44,246 nt of DNA from an uncultured Candidatus Marinamargulisbacteria bacterium (GTDB lineage Bacteria > Margulisbacteria > Riflemargulisbacteria > GWF2-35-9): contig CAIWAN010000082.1 in the NCBI GenBank assembly GCA_903910705.1, positions 1 through 44,246 of the forward strand. The letters are read 5' to 3'. Shown piece by piece: positions 442-8,169 of this stretch. Position numbers and translations under genes: made by a program. Positions within the stretch are counted from its first letter, which is position 1, and each line of letters begins with the position of its first letter. The notes below the pieces were generated by a model, which did not search any database, was not told where the DNA came from, and worked only from the letters and a program-made list of their open reading frames with translations.

Positions 442-3147
442 ATGGACGCGAACACCTTCAAAGACACCGTTAATCTACCTATTACCGACATGCCGATGAA
501 GGCAGGGCTTATCAATATTGAGCCTAACATCCTGTCCAACTGGACCGAGCAAAAGATCTATCAGACGCGCCAAAAGGCCAATGCCGGCAATACGCCTTTC
601 ATCCTCCATGATGGCCCGCCGTATCCCAATGGCAACATCCATCTCGGCCATGCGCTTAACAAGATCCTGAAGGACATTATCATTAAATATCACCTTATCA
701 AAGGCCACGATACCCCGTATGTTCCGGGATGGGACTGCCATGGATTACCTATCGAGACCCAGCTCTTAAAAGACCTCAAAAAGAAAGAAGTCCTCGACGA
801 CGAGGTGCATAGTTTTCGCGAGCAGTGCCGTGATTATGCCCTGAAGTTCGTCGATCTACAGAAATCTCAATTCGATCGACTCGGAATTTGGGGCGATTTC
901 GAACACCCTTACTTAACCCTAACGCCAGAGTATGAAAAGGCCGTCATCGAGCTGTTCGGCAAGATGGCTGATGCGGGGCTTGTTTATCAAGGCAAAAAAC
1001 CCATTCACTGGTGCGGACATTGCAAAACGGCCTTGGCCGAAGCCGAGATCGAATACAGCGACGAACGATCGTCATCGGTTTATGTTCGATTTCCTTTAGT
1101 TGACGCCGTTAAAGGACACAAAAAGGTTTCGCTCATCGTTTGGACAACCACGCCTTGGACGTTGCCCGCTAATGTGGCCGTGGCGGTTCACCCTGATTTT
1201 GATTATGTCGTGGTGGACGTGGCCGGTGAAACGTTCCTCGCGGTAGAGGCCTTGATCCCCAAATTGACAGAAAAACTAGGCTGGGGCGAGGTCAAGACCC
1301 TTGATCGAATAACCGGCAAACAACTCGAAGGCCAGACCTATACGCATCCCTTTATCAACCGCGTGAGTCCGGTGGTTTGTGCCCATTATGTGTCAAGTGA
1401 AGATGGTTCGGGTCTTGTCCATATCGCGCCAGGACATGGCTACGAAGACTTTATGGTGGGCCAAGCGTATAAACTGCCGACCATCATGCCAGTCGATGAA
1501 AAGGGCGTCTTTACCGACGAAGCCGGAAAATATGCCGGTCTTGCCGTTCGGGATGCCAATAAAGTGATCATTGCTGATCTCGAAGAACTGGGGAAACTCC
1601 TTAAACTCGAATATATTCAACACAGTTATCCGCATTGCTGGCGTTGTGGCGAGCCGGTCATTTTCCGTGCGACCGAGCAATGGTTTATCGCGATGGATAG
1701 CGACGCGCAGCTACGCAACAAAGCGTTGGCCGCCATCAAAGACGTCAAATGGTATCCCGATTGGGGACAGAAACGCATCACGAGTATGGTCGACGGTCGA
1801 CCCGATTGGTGTATTTCGCGTCAACGCTTTTGGGGGATCCCGATCCCTGTTTTTTATTGCGAAAAATGTAAAGAGCCGCATTTCACAGGGCCGTTCAACA
1901 AAGCGGTCGTCGAAATGGTCGCCAAACACGGCACGAACGGTTGGTTTTCTCAAACGGCTGCCCAAATTTTACCCAAGACCCTGTCCTGTTCAAAATGCGG
2001 ACATGGCGTCTTCGAAAAAGACAAAAATATCATGGATGTGTGGCTTGAATCAGGGGCTTCTCACCATGCGGTCCTCGATCAAACAAAAGGGTTACATTAC
2101 CCCGCCGATCTTTACCTCGAAGGCAGCGACCAACATCGCGGTTGGTTCCAAAGTTCACTCTTAACAGCCGTCGGGGCGAATGGCTCGGCGCCCTATAAGG
2201 CGGTGCTTACCCACGGGTTCACTATCGACGAAAAAGGCCAAAAGATGAGCAAATCCAAGGGCAACGTCATCGATCCGTTAAAGGTCATTAGCATTCACGG
2301 CGCGGACATTCTGCGTTTATGGGTTGGGTCCACCGATTTTACCAATGATGTCATCTTGTCAGAAAATATAGTGGGTCAGGTCAAGGACGCGTTTACCAAG
2401 ATCCGCAATACCCTGCGGTTTTTAATGAGCAATATCCATGATTTTGATGAGAACAAAGATAGCGTCAAGATCGATAGTCTGCTTGATGTCGACCAATGGA
2501 TTTTGGCAAAATTGAATCTCTTGATCGACAAGGTCGACGGCTTCTATCAAGAATACGAGCTTCATCAAATCTATCATTCGATCTATAACTTTTGCGTGAT
2601 CGAGCTGAGCGCGTTTTATCTCGATATCCAAAAGGACAATCTTTATTGCAACGGCGTCAATAGTCCGGCTCGCCGTTCATGTCAAACCGCTTTGAGCATG
2701 ATAAGTCGATCCTTGATCGTCATGTTGTCGCCGATTTTGGCCTTTTCGATGGAAGACGTTTACCGATATTTACCCGGCCAAAAGAAAACGTCGGTGTTCC
2801 TAGAGACCTATCCCAGTGCCGTCAAGATTAAAGATCAATCCGAGGTCTTGCAACGATTTGAAGCGCTTCTGCAAATTAGGGTGGCGGTGAATGCCGAGCT
2901 AGAAAAGCTCCGTCAGACGAAGGTCATCGGTAGCTCGTTAGAAGCGGCCATTGTCGTCACAACCCCCAGTGCCTTAACGGTTCAAGAGCTGGAAAAGGTG
3001 CTCGTCGTCAGTCGGATTACCATTCAGAAGGGCGAGACCTTCTCCGTGACCGTCTCCAAGGCTGAGGGCGAAAAATGTCTTCGTTGTTGGAAGTACGCCG
3101 ACCTGACCCCCGAAGGGCTCTGTCCTCGATGTCATGGTGTCTTATGA
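442..3147 (+). CDS. ileS: Isoleucyl-tRNA synthetase
   Basis: This class I aminoacyl-tRNA synthetase charges tRNA-Ile with isoleucine in the cytosol. At 901 residues it is slightly shorter than the ~938 of E. coli IleRS. The N-terminus (KDTVNLPITDMPMKAGL) matches the family start. The HIGH-type signature is GNIHLGHA (H67-H70) and the KMSKS loop is intact (residues 601-605). The CP1 editing domain lies between them, with the WTTTPWTLPAN motif. The C-terminus ends in a zinc finger with C879, C882, C894 and C897, typical of bacterial type IleRS. The last 14 bases overlap the start of the ketoacyl-synthase gene, so the two are probably co-transcribed. No T-box leader is visible; a promoter sits directly against the start codon. 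Confidence 0.98.
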   Translation: MDANTFKDTVNLPITDMPMKAGLINIEPNILSNWTEQKIYQTRQKANAGNTPFILHDGPPYPNGNIHLGHALNKILKDIIIKYHLIKGHDTPYVPGWDCHGLPIETQLLKDLKKKEVLDDEVHSFREQCRDYALKFVDLQKSQFDRLGIWGDFEHPYLTLTPEYEKAVIELFGKMADAGLVYQGKKPIHWCGHCKTALAEAEIEYSDERSSSVYVRFPLVDAVKGHKKVSLIVWTTTPWTLPANVAVAVHPDFDYVVVDVAGETFLAVEALIPKLTEKLGWGEVKTLDRITGKQLEGQTYTHPFINRVSPVVCAHYVSSEDGSGLVHIAPGHGYEDFMVGQAYKLPTIMPVDEKGVFTDEAGKYAGLAVRDANKVIIADLEELGKLLKLEYIQHSYPHCWRCGEPVIFRATEQWFIAMDSDAQLRNKALAAIKDVKWYPDWGQKRITSMVDGRPDWCISRQRFWGIPIPVFYCEKCKEPHFTGPFNKAVVEMVAKHGTNGWFSQTAAQILPKTLSCSKCGHGVFEKDKNIMDVWLESGASHHAVLDQTKGLHYPADLYLEGSDQHRGWFQSSLLTAVGANGSAPYKAVLTHGFTIDEKGQKMSKSKGNVIDPLKVISIHGADILRLWVGSTDFTNDVILSENIVGQVKDAFTKIRNTLRFLMSNIHDFDENKDSVKIDSLLDVDQWILAKLNLLIDKVDGFYQEYELHQIYHSIYNFCVIELSAFYLDIQKDNLYCNGVNSPARRSCQTALSMISRSLIVMLSPILAFSMEDVYRYLPGQKKTSVFLETYPSAVKIKDQSEVLQRFEALLQIRVAVNAELEKLRQTKVIGSSLEAAIVVTTPSALTVQELEKVLVVSRITIQKGETFSVTVSKAEGEKCLRCWKYADLTPEGLCPRCHGVL

Positions 3148-4141
3148 CATCCTCGATTTTAGTGTAATCAGCCCCTTAGGTGAGGGGAAAACAACCCACA
3201 TTGAGGCCTTAGAGACCGCTCGAATTGCCTCGCAGTATGCGATCGGCCGTGACGAAGTTGACTTGCTCCGTGATCTTTGGGAACCCCTTAAACACCACGT
3301 GGCGGGTGTTCCGTCGCATCGCATCGGGGTTGTCGTCAGTAATAGCAAATATCAGTTCCGAAGTCAGTCATTTTCTCATGAGTCCTCGCAATTACTGGCT
3401 TCGTGGATAGGGCCAAACGCCATCCCGTATAATATTACAGCCGCCTGTGCCACGGGGCTGGTATCGGTGATGACCGGCGTGCAATGGTTGCGTCGTGGCT
3501 GGGTCGATGTGGTGATCGCGGGGAGCCTCGAGACCTCTAAGGTCCCGTTGGTCGAGGCCGCTTTCTCACAAATGGGCGTGTTGTCGAAGCAGGGCGTTTG
3601 TCGTCCGTTTACAGAAGACCGAGATGGGTTTGTGATCGGCGAAGGGGGGGCGCTCTTTGTCCTAACGCGCGCCAATGAAAGGGGAACGCCACTTGCCCAG
3701 ATCGAGAAGGGAACGATGATGGCCGACCCAACCGATCTCTTGTCGGTTGATCCCTCGGGCAACAGTATCGCTAGCCTGATCCGGCAAACCATCGGCACCT
3801 CAAGGATTGACTATATCAACGCCCATGGTACGGGGACCCGTCTAAACGATGCGGCCGAACTCGCGGCGTTTGAGCAAGTCTTTCAAGCAGACAAGCCCCT
3901 CATTTCTTCGACAAAAGCGCAGACGGGGCACTTGCTCGGGGCGACAGGGTCGGTCGAGCTCGCGCTTTGTGTCCTGATGCTGTCGGAGCAAGTCGCGGTT
4001 CCGGTGCTGCCTGACACGTCCGCTTCGCTGATGCAAGGCATGGCCGCCTTTCAAAACATCCCCGCAAGCCTCAATAGAATATTAACTCTAAATTATGGCT
4101 TTGGTGGACACTTGGCTGCCTTGATGATAGCCACGCCTTAG
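3134..4141 (+). CDS. Short beta-ketoacyl-ACP synthase-like protein
   Basis: This is a thiolase-fold condensing enzyme homologue of the KAS I/II (FabB/FabF) type. The catalytic Cys-His-His set is present: Cys105 in NITAACATG, His231 in NAHGTGTRLND, and His266 in KAQTGHLLGATG, with Lys261 just before. At 335 residues it is well below the ~410 of FabF, with the N-terminal half shortened. No acyl carrier protein, malonyl transferase or other fatty-acid gene lies nearby. It overlaps ileS by 14 nt and ends just before the LCP gene. The motifs suggest a working condensing enzyme with an unknown acyl substrate, possibly in a secondary lipid or polyketide pathway; that last step is inference. Confidence 0.8.
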   Translation: MVSYDILDFSVISPLGEGKTTHIEALETARIASQYAIGRDEVDLLRDLWEPLKHHVAGVPSHRIGVVVSNSKYQFRSQSFSHESSQLLASWIGPNAIPYNITAACATGLVSVMTGVQWLRRGWVDVVIAGSLETSKVPLVEAAFSQMGVLSKQGVCRPFTEDRDGFVIGEGGALFVLTRANERGTPLAQIEKGTMMADPTDLLSVDPSGNSIASLIRQTIGTSRIDYINAHGTGTRLNDAAELAAFEQVFQADKPLISSTKAQTGHLLGATGSVELALCVLMLSEQVAVPVLPDTSASLMQGMAAFQNIPASLNRILTLNYGFGGHLAALMIATP

Positions 4142-5995: not shown

Positions 5996-6991
5996 TTACT
6001 GTTTACCTAGCGCCTCGATCAACTCAAAAACAATGCGGTCTTCCCAATGTTCATGATGAAGCGCGATTGGGTTGATAAGGGATATCCATAAACGCGTTAC
6101 CCGATGGATAAAGGCCGTGTCGGCGTTTCGGTCGAGTCGAGTAATGACCTCTTCCCAAACCGAGTTGATCTTTTGAAAATGACTCAAGTTAAGCGGAAAT
6201 TTCATCGCGAACCCCGCTTCAGAAAGATGAAAATATTCCTCTAGGAATGCTCGCTCGTTTTTTTCGGCAAGGGTTTGTTTGATATTCTTTTCGGCATCGA
6301 ATTCCGATAACAGATAAAGGATGACTTGGGAGTATACGTCAAAGTTTGGATCGAGCCTTAGTCGTTTGGCGCGATAATTTAAGGCGCTTTCCCAGTGATC
6401 GAGTGCCTCAAAGGAGATCTCATCCAAAACGATTCGATAGATATGGCGCATATCAAACCCATATTTCGAGAGGAAAAACAGATGACTGGCAAACCGATCG
6501 ACATTTTGGTCGACAACACATTTTCGCAGAAGTTTTATTGAGCGATCAAAATAGCTTAACCAATAATGAGCCATATTCTGATAGAAAACCGGCTCAAGAT
6601 GGATTTGAAAGATCGTGTGTTCAATGATCCGTTGCCAGTCGCTAGCGATATTCTGCATGTCAAAGGTGACGGGGAATTCAATGTAAAGGCCTTGATTGGC
6701 CAAGCGCCGAAAATGCCGTAAGGTCTCGTACGCCGAACCTTTTTGCATCGCTTCGATCGCCGGTTTGTAAACGCTTTGGGGGCACCACCTGATCCGCCCC
6801 GCGCCCATCCATAAGAGCGTGAGTTCTTTATAGAACGCTTCGGTTTGCTCTAGCCCCAGACTTTGCCCAATGAGCCGCCAGTGATCGAACACCACCTTCG
6901 CCTCGTTAGCTTTGGGATAGAGTTTAGATGTTTCTGTTTCTTCAGGGCTTAGATAGTGCCTCAAAAAATCGCTCGCCGAAAGACTATTCAC
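5996..6991 (-). CDS. Uncharacterised helical protein with four ~80-residue repeats
   Basis: I do not recognise this 331-residue protein. It has no signal peptide or membrane segment. It does contain a regular internal repeat: tryptophans at 38, 119, 200 and 279 (spacing 81, 81, 79), each followed about 24 residues later by an aromatic in a helix (W61, W144, Y226, W302), with F-Y or F-I pairs between. Between units comes a second shared motif, seen as LRHFRRLANQGLYIEFP, SHLFFLSKYGFDMRHI and LEEYFHLSEAGFAMKFP. The start is GTG at 6991, 7 nt after the amj stop, so it is the third gene of the queD-amj unit. An alpha-solenoid or scaffold-like protein is likely. A link to the lipid II flippase is suggested only by position. 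Confidence 0.7.
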   Translation of the reverse strand: MNSLSASDFLRHYLSPEETETSKLYPKANEAKVVFDHWRLIGQSLGLEQTEAFYKELTLLWMGAGRIRWCPQSVYKPAIEAMQKGSAYETLRHFRRLANQGLYIEFPVTFDMQNIASDWQRIIEHTIFQIHLEPVFYQNMAHYWLSYFDRSIKLLRKCVVDQNVDRFASHLFFLSKYGFDMRHIYRIVLDEISFEALDHWESALNYRAKRLRLDPNFDVYSQVILYLLSEFDAEKNIKQTLAEKNERAFLEEYFHLSEAGFAMKFPLNLSHFQKINSVWEEVITRLDRNADTAFIHRVTRLWISLINPIALHHEHWEDRIVFELIEALGKQ

Positions 6992-6998
6992 GGGGCAA

Positions 6999-7820
6999 CT
7001 ATATCAGCTTGGTGATCGCCATGATGTAATTCGCCGCTGGCGTTAAAATAATCTGCGCGATCAGCAACAACCCGATCATCCGCGAGACCATCAAATAGAC
7101 CACTACACTTTTGACATCCTCGGCAGGCCTTGTGCCATGGACCGCTTGATCGGTGATCCGAGCGCCCGTTGGGTCGACCATGAGGGTAAACAAGATCGTG
7201 GCGACCCCATTGACGATGCCGGATAGTTGGATCGCGGTTGCGCGCATGTCGGGAAGAAACGCACCGGCTAGCAGCGAAGCCAGAACCCCGATCGAATAGA
7301 TCGAGGCGACGATGCCGTTCAGGATCAGAAATTTCTTGGGAATCCGTTTGAGCGAAATATTCTTAAGCATCGACAGTCTTGGCAGCGTGAAGCAGGCGAT
7401 TAATTTAGCCCAACGCCGTGGTGAAAAGATCAGCATTCCCGCCATGCGAGGCAACGAGCCGATTCGCAAAAAACTATGGATCGATAGTTCAAAGGTTTTA
7501 ACCATCGTGGGCGTGAGCAGAGCCGCCGCCAGAACCCCCAAGAACCCGCCTATGAGAACCATCCGAAACGTAAATTCAAGATGGGCAAGGGCGGCAGGGT
7601 TCCCGACTCGGATCGTGTCATCGACCATTTTTCCGAGAAGAGGTGCTTGGAACATATTGCTGAGCCGCGAAACCAGCAGGGTACTTGTGACAAACGACAT
7701 CGAGATGGCGATCTGCTTTGATTTAAGCCCTGCATACCGCATCGAGTAAGCAAGGGTTTCCGTTAGATTGATCATGAACGTAAAAAACGCGACAACGAGA
7801 ATGATCGTCCAGCTACTCAT
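6999..7820 (-). CDS. amj: Amj-type lipid II flippase (DUF2837 family)
   Basis: Amj flips undecaprenyl-linked lipid II across the inner membrane and can replace MurJ in Bacillus subtilis. The protein opens with MSSWTIILVVAFFTFMINLT and the family hallmark ETLAYSMRYAG, followed by SKQIAISMSFV and LVSRLSNMFQAPLLG, and then further hydrophobic segments to the C-terminus. I place the start at ATG 7820, which overlaps the queD stop by 8 nt; an upstream ATG at 7850 would add ten polar residues and overlap queD more deeply. Length is 273 residues, as expected for Amj (~270). It sits with an LCP ligase convergent downstream, so this stretch is enriched in envelope functions. Confidence 0.85.
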   Translation of the reverse strand: MSSWTIILVVAFFTFMINLTETLAYSMRYAGLKSKQIAISMSFVTSTLLVSRLSNMFQAPLLGKMVDDTIRVGNPAALAHLEFTFRMVLIGGFLGVLAAALLTPTMVKTFELSIHSFLRIGSLPRMAGMLIFSPRRWAKLIACFTLPRLSMLKNISLKRIPKKFLILNGIVASIYSIGVLASLLAGAFLPDMRATAIQLSGIVNGVATILFTLMVDPTGARITDQAVHGTRPAEDVKSVVVYLMVSRMIGLLLIAQIILTPAANYIMAITKLI

Positions 7821-8169
7821 AGTAGGTTGCCGACGCCGTTTCAGACTCAAAAACAGTCGCCTTTACGAGTCGCACGCCTTTAGGTAGCTGCGTTTTGATC
7901 GTATGATAAACGTATTCGGCCAATCGCTCTGACGTGGGTGAAAAGGGCAATATATCATTAAGGAACTTGTGGTCGAACTCATCATGGATCTGTTTGATCG
8001 TTTTTTTAAGAATATGAAAATCGACGAGCATTCCGATATCGTCTAAGGTCTCGCCTTCGACGGTCACTTGCAGCTTGAACGTGTGCCCGTGTAGGTTCTC
8101 GCAGGGGCCGTCATAATTGACAAGCTGATGGGCGGCAGAAAAGTGATCTTCAACTCTAAGGCGAAACAT
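7813..8169 (-). CDS. queD: 6-carboxy-tetrahydropterin synthase (QueD/PTPS family)
   Basis: QueD converts dihydroneopterin triphosphate to 6-carboxy-tetrahydropterin in the preQ0/queuosine pathway. The 118-residue protein from ATG 8169 has the zinc histidines in FSAAHQL and NLHGHTFKL, the conserved MLVDFHILK segment, DHKFLND, PTSERLAEYVY, and the C-terminal glutamate in VFESETASATYYE. The frame extends upstream to 8241, but those 24 residues are not family-like, and a -10 box lies just before 8169. Another queuosine gene, queH, is at 21503; the other pathway genes are not in the window. Confidence 0.92.
   Translation of the reverse strand: MFRLRVEDHFSAAHQLVNYDGPCENLHGHTFKLQVTVEGETLDDIGMLVDFHILKKTIKQIHDEFDHKFLNDILPFSPTSERLAEYVYHTIKTQLPKGVRLVKATVFESETASATYYE

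Follow-up and report, generated by a model that had tools for sequence, protein, structure and literature searches.

A four-module helical protein of Margulisbacteria and the gene-order link of its family to TerB and J-domain cochaperones

The gene and its repeats

The window, that is, the whole 44,246-nucleotide stretch of DNA analysed here, comes from an uncultured Candidatus Marinamargulisbacteria bacterium, and on its minus strand, at positions 5996-6991, it carries a gene for a four-module helical protein of 331 aa. The reading frame begins with a GTG start codon at 6991 and ends with a TAA stop codon at 5996-5998; the plus strand over the same positions contains many stops. Upstream and on the same strand, at a distance of 7 nt, lies amj (6999-7820; PF10997, E 4.4e-79), encoding the alternate lipid II flippase, which is in turn overlapped by 8 nt by queD (7813-8169; TIGR03367 and PF01242), encoding 6-carboxytetrahydropterin synthase. 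The protein is 79% identical to that of a genus-mate (dN 0.138, dS ~2 and saturated), and as judged from this sequence comparison the gene is under purifying selection; its nearest named relatives are found in Marinamargulisbacteria AM_bin-3330 (78% identity) and Margulisbacteria GWF2_35_9 (34%). Elsewhere in the window, at 3134-4141 and directly behind an ileS-like gene, a short beta-ketoacyl synthase-like protein of 335 aa is encoded, whose scores against the curated KAS models are far under cut-off.

A preliminary description of the locus proposed four repeats of ~80 residues, and this is borne out by three strong matches and one weak match to a profile that was built from the two-module relatives in other genomes, with the window sequence excluded. 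Module 1 (6794-6991, minus strand; aa 1-66) has a shortened N-terminus and is matched over residues 5-62 with 16.8 bits, module 2 (6542-6778, minus strand; aa 72-150) over residues 80-147 with 30.0 bits, module 3 (6302-6541, minus strand; aa 151-230) over residues 152-192 with 0.1 bits, and module 4 (5999-6301, minus strand; aa 231-331), the best conserved of the four, over residues 235-311 with 47.0 bits. A wider profile of 35 modules, from which the window's taxonomic family was left out entirely, gives 22.0, 25.3, 2.1 and 45.0 bits on the same repeats. Two domains above 10 bits were obtained in none of 2000 shuffles of the window protein. The repeat in the window protein is real.

The third repeat is degenerate, and its 0.1-2.1 bits in the context of the whole protein could be taken to mean that the four repeats are illusory and that the protein is simply helical, without repeats, and has a few Trp residues at intervals. 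We consider this very improbable in view of the three strong window-free matches and the result of the shuffles. When scored alone, repeat 3 reaches 6.2 bits (p = 0.001, 2000 shuffles), and hhalign to the family profile gives 85%; direct hhalign of repeat 3 with repeats 1, 2 and 4 found only common overlap columns. Its assignment rests on the family profile and on the helices predicted for it in the structural model.

The Trp residues at 38, 119, 200 and 279 stand exactly at the positions first reported. When nine Trp residues are placed at random, a chain of four at a spacing of 79-81 arises in 0.07% of trials; if any period from 40 to 100 is allowed, this rises to 3.5% of trials, and the Trp spacing is therefore weak evidence by itself, which is the other point in favor of illusory repeats. 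The aromatic residues described as following ~24 residues after each Trp are present as W61, W144 and W302 and missing from the third repeat, which has V/I/L at 223-225. The second motif, F-x-x-L-x-x-x-G-[LF], does not recur as it was written, being found once, at 94; with [FYL] at the first position it is found at 94, 171 and 253, with spacings of 77 and 82, and repeat 1 is without it. A self-comparison also gave a repeat signal beyond the Trp residues, the best ungapped self-diagonal lying at an offset of 82 with a score of 44, where 300 shuffles had their 95th percentile at 36 (p ~0.007).

AlphaFold2 predicts 16 helices for the window protein (pLDDT 80.9, pTM 0.56), an all-helical model that is compatible with the alpha-solenoid proposed for it. 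For a two-module relative, the prediction (pLDDT 80.5, pTM 0.46) comprises two five-helix modules, a linker and a C-terminal helix; in blocks of ten residues, the modules have pLDDT values of 71-97 and the linker ~40-47. The two models would be reconcilable if the last helix of each tandem repeat were common to the next repeat. Foldseek searches with both models against the PDB, and with that of the two-module relative against viral models, returned nothing at E 0.001 or better. In VIA-align, the window model gave weak PPR-design and BamD rows only, with a best listed Z of 6.1 over 70 residues, and the best Z for the relative was 3.7, values such as common helical arrangements give; a C-terminal, TetR-like resemblance seen for module 4 (Z up to 5.1) is attributed to chance. 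The lack of a significant fold match does not make the fold new.

A module family of Margulisbacteria

The protein had been called unrecognised, and it retains that status, with no convincing match in Pfam, NCBIfam, PHROG, PADLOC and PDB-sequence searches. In Pfam and NCBIfam nothing scored above cut-off; Pfam at E up to 1 returned only Cluap1 and DUF4852, both under cut-off, and a weak PDB profile match to glucokinase regulatory protein (E 0.64) is dismissed as chance. For 21 family members in Pfam (best 25 of 31 families), NCBIfam, PHROGs and PADLOC, there were only isolated weak matches among the matches listed; NepR, HamB, phrog_11473, Scm3 and others are likewise put down to chance, each being weak and limited to one or two members. 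The family module spans ~97 residues and five helices, with the consensus ..FLxxYLxL..G....P......IxxxWxxI......FLxxLxxxWxxL...G... The analysis defines a protein family outside the curated libraries searched and provides a seed alignment and domain limits for it.

With a nine-row module alignment, the family is found in 22 of the 74 Margulisbacteria genomes; with a 28-row alignment it is found in 21, G061 being lost. Across 383 genomes, of which the phylum makes up at most 74, matches were found in 21, all of them Margulisbacteria. Plasmids searched with the window protein, phages searched with one two-module relative and viral contigs searched with another gave no match. In a literature search combining Margulisbacteria with DnaJ, TerB and helical repeat, Margulisbacteria were absent among the matches listed.

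We examined 23 loci from the 22 genomes, and 17 of them encode complete two-module proteins. The four-repeat form is represented by three proteins (G000, the window genome, G001 and G004), all from one taxonomic family. The other three loci are L049, cut by a contig end, L063, with a single module of 97 aa, and L064, a second and incomplete copy in G047; the two loci of that genome lie at L049:3258-3856 and L064:40-525, the latter a divergent incomplete copy close to where another contig ends. Usually, the family protein has 230-330 aa and is composed of an N-type module, a disordered linker that contains a conserved S-x-x-Y, and a C-type module; the linker Ser and Tyr are invariant in all 17 aligned two-module proteins. 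A short basic/aromatic C-terminal tail is, by eye, present in ~11 of these 17 and missing in ~6. The window protein has neither the S-x-x-Y linker nor this tail, module 4 running to a C-terminus that reads ...ELIEALGKQ. A tree built from 46 modules places those of the N-type in a single group (87% support from 200 bootstrap trees); the modules of the window lineage fall with the C-type modules at only moderate support (85/92). The best explanation is that the window protein is a derived, tail-less member of the module family.

Gene neighbours of the family

The order queD-amj-gene, with its 8-nt overlap and 7-nt gap, is operon-like, as the preliminary description had it, and is kept in the genus-mate; for the family as a whole it is uninformative. 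Homologues do not always neighbour amj, which adjoins the family gene only in the window genome and in its genus-mate, 2 of the 22 family genomes; in G004 a DXS gene lies upstream instead. The amj/queD operon is a genus-level feature only. One could still imagine that the window protein is an accessory of Amj, a cytoplasmic scaffold that binds the flippase or connects it with the cell-wall machinery, and the conserved gene order and the presumed standing of Amj as the main flippase of the phylum would both fit. Amj is, however, encoded in 68 of the 74 Margulisbacteria genomes, far more than the two in which it adjoins the family gene, and the family genomes G012, G025 and G064 are without detected amj. 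We reject the accessory function as a family role on this ground, and for the window protein itself we regard it as quite unlikely; the tempting link to amj is not supported and is corrected here.

With regard to lipid II transport, MurJ was over cut-off in 11 of the 74 Margulisbacteria genomes and is present in 12 of 14 control genomes; the window genome gave no match. Four genomes of genus g7 (G008, G013, G021 and G023) have MurJ matches with one or two internal stops (TGA/TAA), which may reflect decay, an assembly error or recoding. In Margulisbacteria, lipid II may be flipped mainly by Amj. The need for Amj and MurJ in lipid II transport is debated, according to parts of PMC12096821, and Margulisbacteria are therefore a natural test case.

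An upstream gene is visible at 22 of the loci, and at 12 of these it lies directly before the family gene on the same strand and encodes a protein that combines a TerB domain with a J-domain (TerB-J). These junctions are tight, with nine overlaps of 4 nt and three gaps of 1-3 nt. All 12 upstream proteins match Pfam TerB and DnaJ; they have a hydrophobic segment at the N-terminus, then a TerB domain and, at the C-terminus, a J-domain, in which the HPD stretch (H243, P244, D245) is invariant. Where the family gene lies behind a TerB-J gene, it is probably translationally coupled to it.

TerB-J genes occur in 19 of the 74 genomes, namely in 14 of the 22 family genomes vs 5 of the 52 others (Fisher p 4e-6, relatedness ignored); counted by taxonomic family, 8 have both, 5 the module only, 2 TerB-J only and 15 neither (p 0.006). 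Eight of the 22 family genomes lack a TerB domain, including G007 at 100% completeness, so the TerB-J cochaperone is not strictly required. In G020, G028 and G034, all without TerB, an Iso_dh gene still adjoins the family gene, as it also does at several loci with TerB-J, which suggests that TerB-J was lost from an older block. Such a block is seen in part of the phylum, where it consists of genes for an aldo/keto reductase, a HAD hydrolase, TerB-J, the family protein, 5-FTHF cyclo-ligase and Iso_dh.

The window gene has amj as its upstream neighbour, and the TerB-J genes of the window genome lie on other contigs. There are two such membrane cochaperone genes (C73 and C25), located at L082:1363-2154 and L081:4706-5509, and neither adjoins a family member: the gene on L082 shares a 4-nt overlap with the gene of a multi-pass membrane protein, and that on L081 adjoins a gene for a PpiC-type prolyl isomerase. 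In G000 and G002-G006, a profile search beside the TerB-J genes found no hidden divergent members; G055 was left out, its contig stopping at the TerB-J gene.

It might be argued that the family is a general helical interaction scaffold with lineage-specific partners, and that adjacency to TerB-J is an old, partly decayed and functionally meaningless synteny. The eight genomes that keep the family gene without any TerB are in line with this, as is the membership of TerB-J in a six-gene block that part of the phylum inherits as a unit. Against it, the nine overlaps and three short gaps extend over seven taxonomic families in which the other neighbours vary, and such conserved tight junctions point to coupled expression of TerB-J and the family gene. 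We consider meaningless synteny somewhat unlikely.

Proposed role and comparison with known systems

We suggest, tentatively and with a little less than even confidence, that the family was ancestrally an adaptor or client of the membrane TerB-J cochaperone, and that the window protein is a derived four-module solenoid that has been uncoupled from it. We favor this because the genes are coupled, the HPD of the J-domain is intact, and AtcJ-AtcC and DjlA provide precedent. The two-module protein would be a cytoplasmic adaptor (or else a dedicated client or a regulator) that binds to the DjlA-like membrane cochaperone and recruits it, together with DnaK through the J-domain, to particular substrates in the envelope or near the membrane; the basic/aromatic tail might help to keep the protein at the membrane. 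In the window lineage, the protein would have turned into an uninterrupted array of four modules, with a boundary helix common to each neighbouring pair and a period of ~80, with the tail lost and the gene away from the TerB-J genes.

Several observations speak against an adaptor: the family genomes without TerB, the separation of the window genome's two TerB-J genes from its family gene, and the three TerB-J-less genomes that keep the family gene together with Iso_dh, where the gene outlives its supposed partner. Adjacency alone, moreover, does not prove contact. For the window protein itself, a solenoid-like protein-protein scaffold is the most likely function; it would be made together with QueD and Amj, though not necessarily as a partner of either. 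We can also speculate about a phylum-specific envelope chaperone system, in which pairs of a new five-helix module would serve as the dedicated TerB-J adaptor and the expanded four-module array of the window lineage would be co-expressed with Amj, in a phylum where lipid II appears to be flipped by Amj and not by MurJ, an extension that we think unlikely. The gene-order link of the family to DjlA-like cochaperones is a first testable clue to its function, and if the two-module members do bind TerB-J, they would offer a natural handle on the role of TerB in a membrane cochaperone.

With the TPR, PPR and HEAT alpha-solenoids, the window model has all-helical tandem units in common; its unit differs, having ~80 residues and about four helices, and at the sequence level the window protein is not placed in these families, there being no such Pfam match for it at E up to 1. 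E. coli DjlA is presented in the relevant passages of PMC11709261 as a membrane protein combining a TerB-like part with a J-domain, and it has the same layout as the upstream neighbour at the 12 loci, that is, a hydrophobic N-terminus, TerB and a J-domain. These passages leave the TerB domain of DjlA-like cochaperones with no settled function and, along with parts of PMC10754441, ascribe to DjlA a role in the envelope. The window protein differs from DjlA in having neither TerB nor a J-domain (Pfam, E up to 1). In Shewanella, the short AtcJ binds its operon partner AtcC through its C-terminal 21 residues, as set out in parts of PMC6715715; there, likewise, an otherwise unknown protein is encoded with a dedicated J-domain protein, a likeness of gene arrangement, and the J-protein found here differs in being membrane-anchored and carrying TerB. 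A further likeness, by description only, is to CbpA-CbpM, which excerpts of PMC4063869 describe as the pair of a J-domain protein and its small, dedicated regulator.
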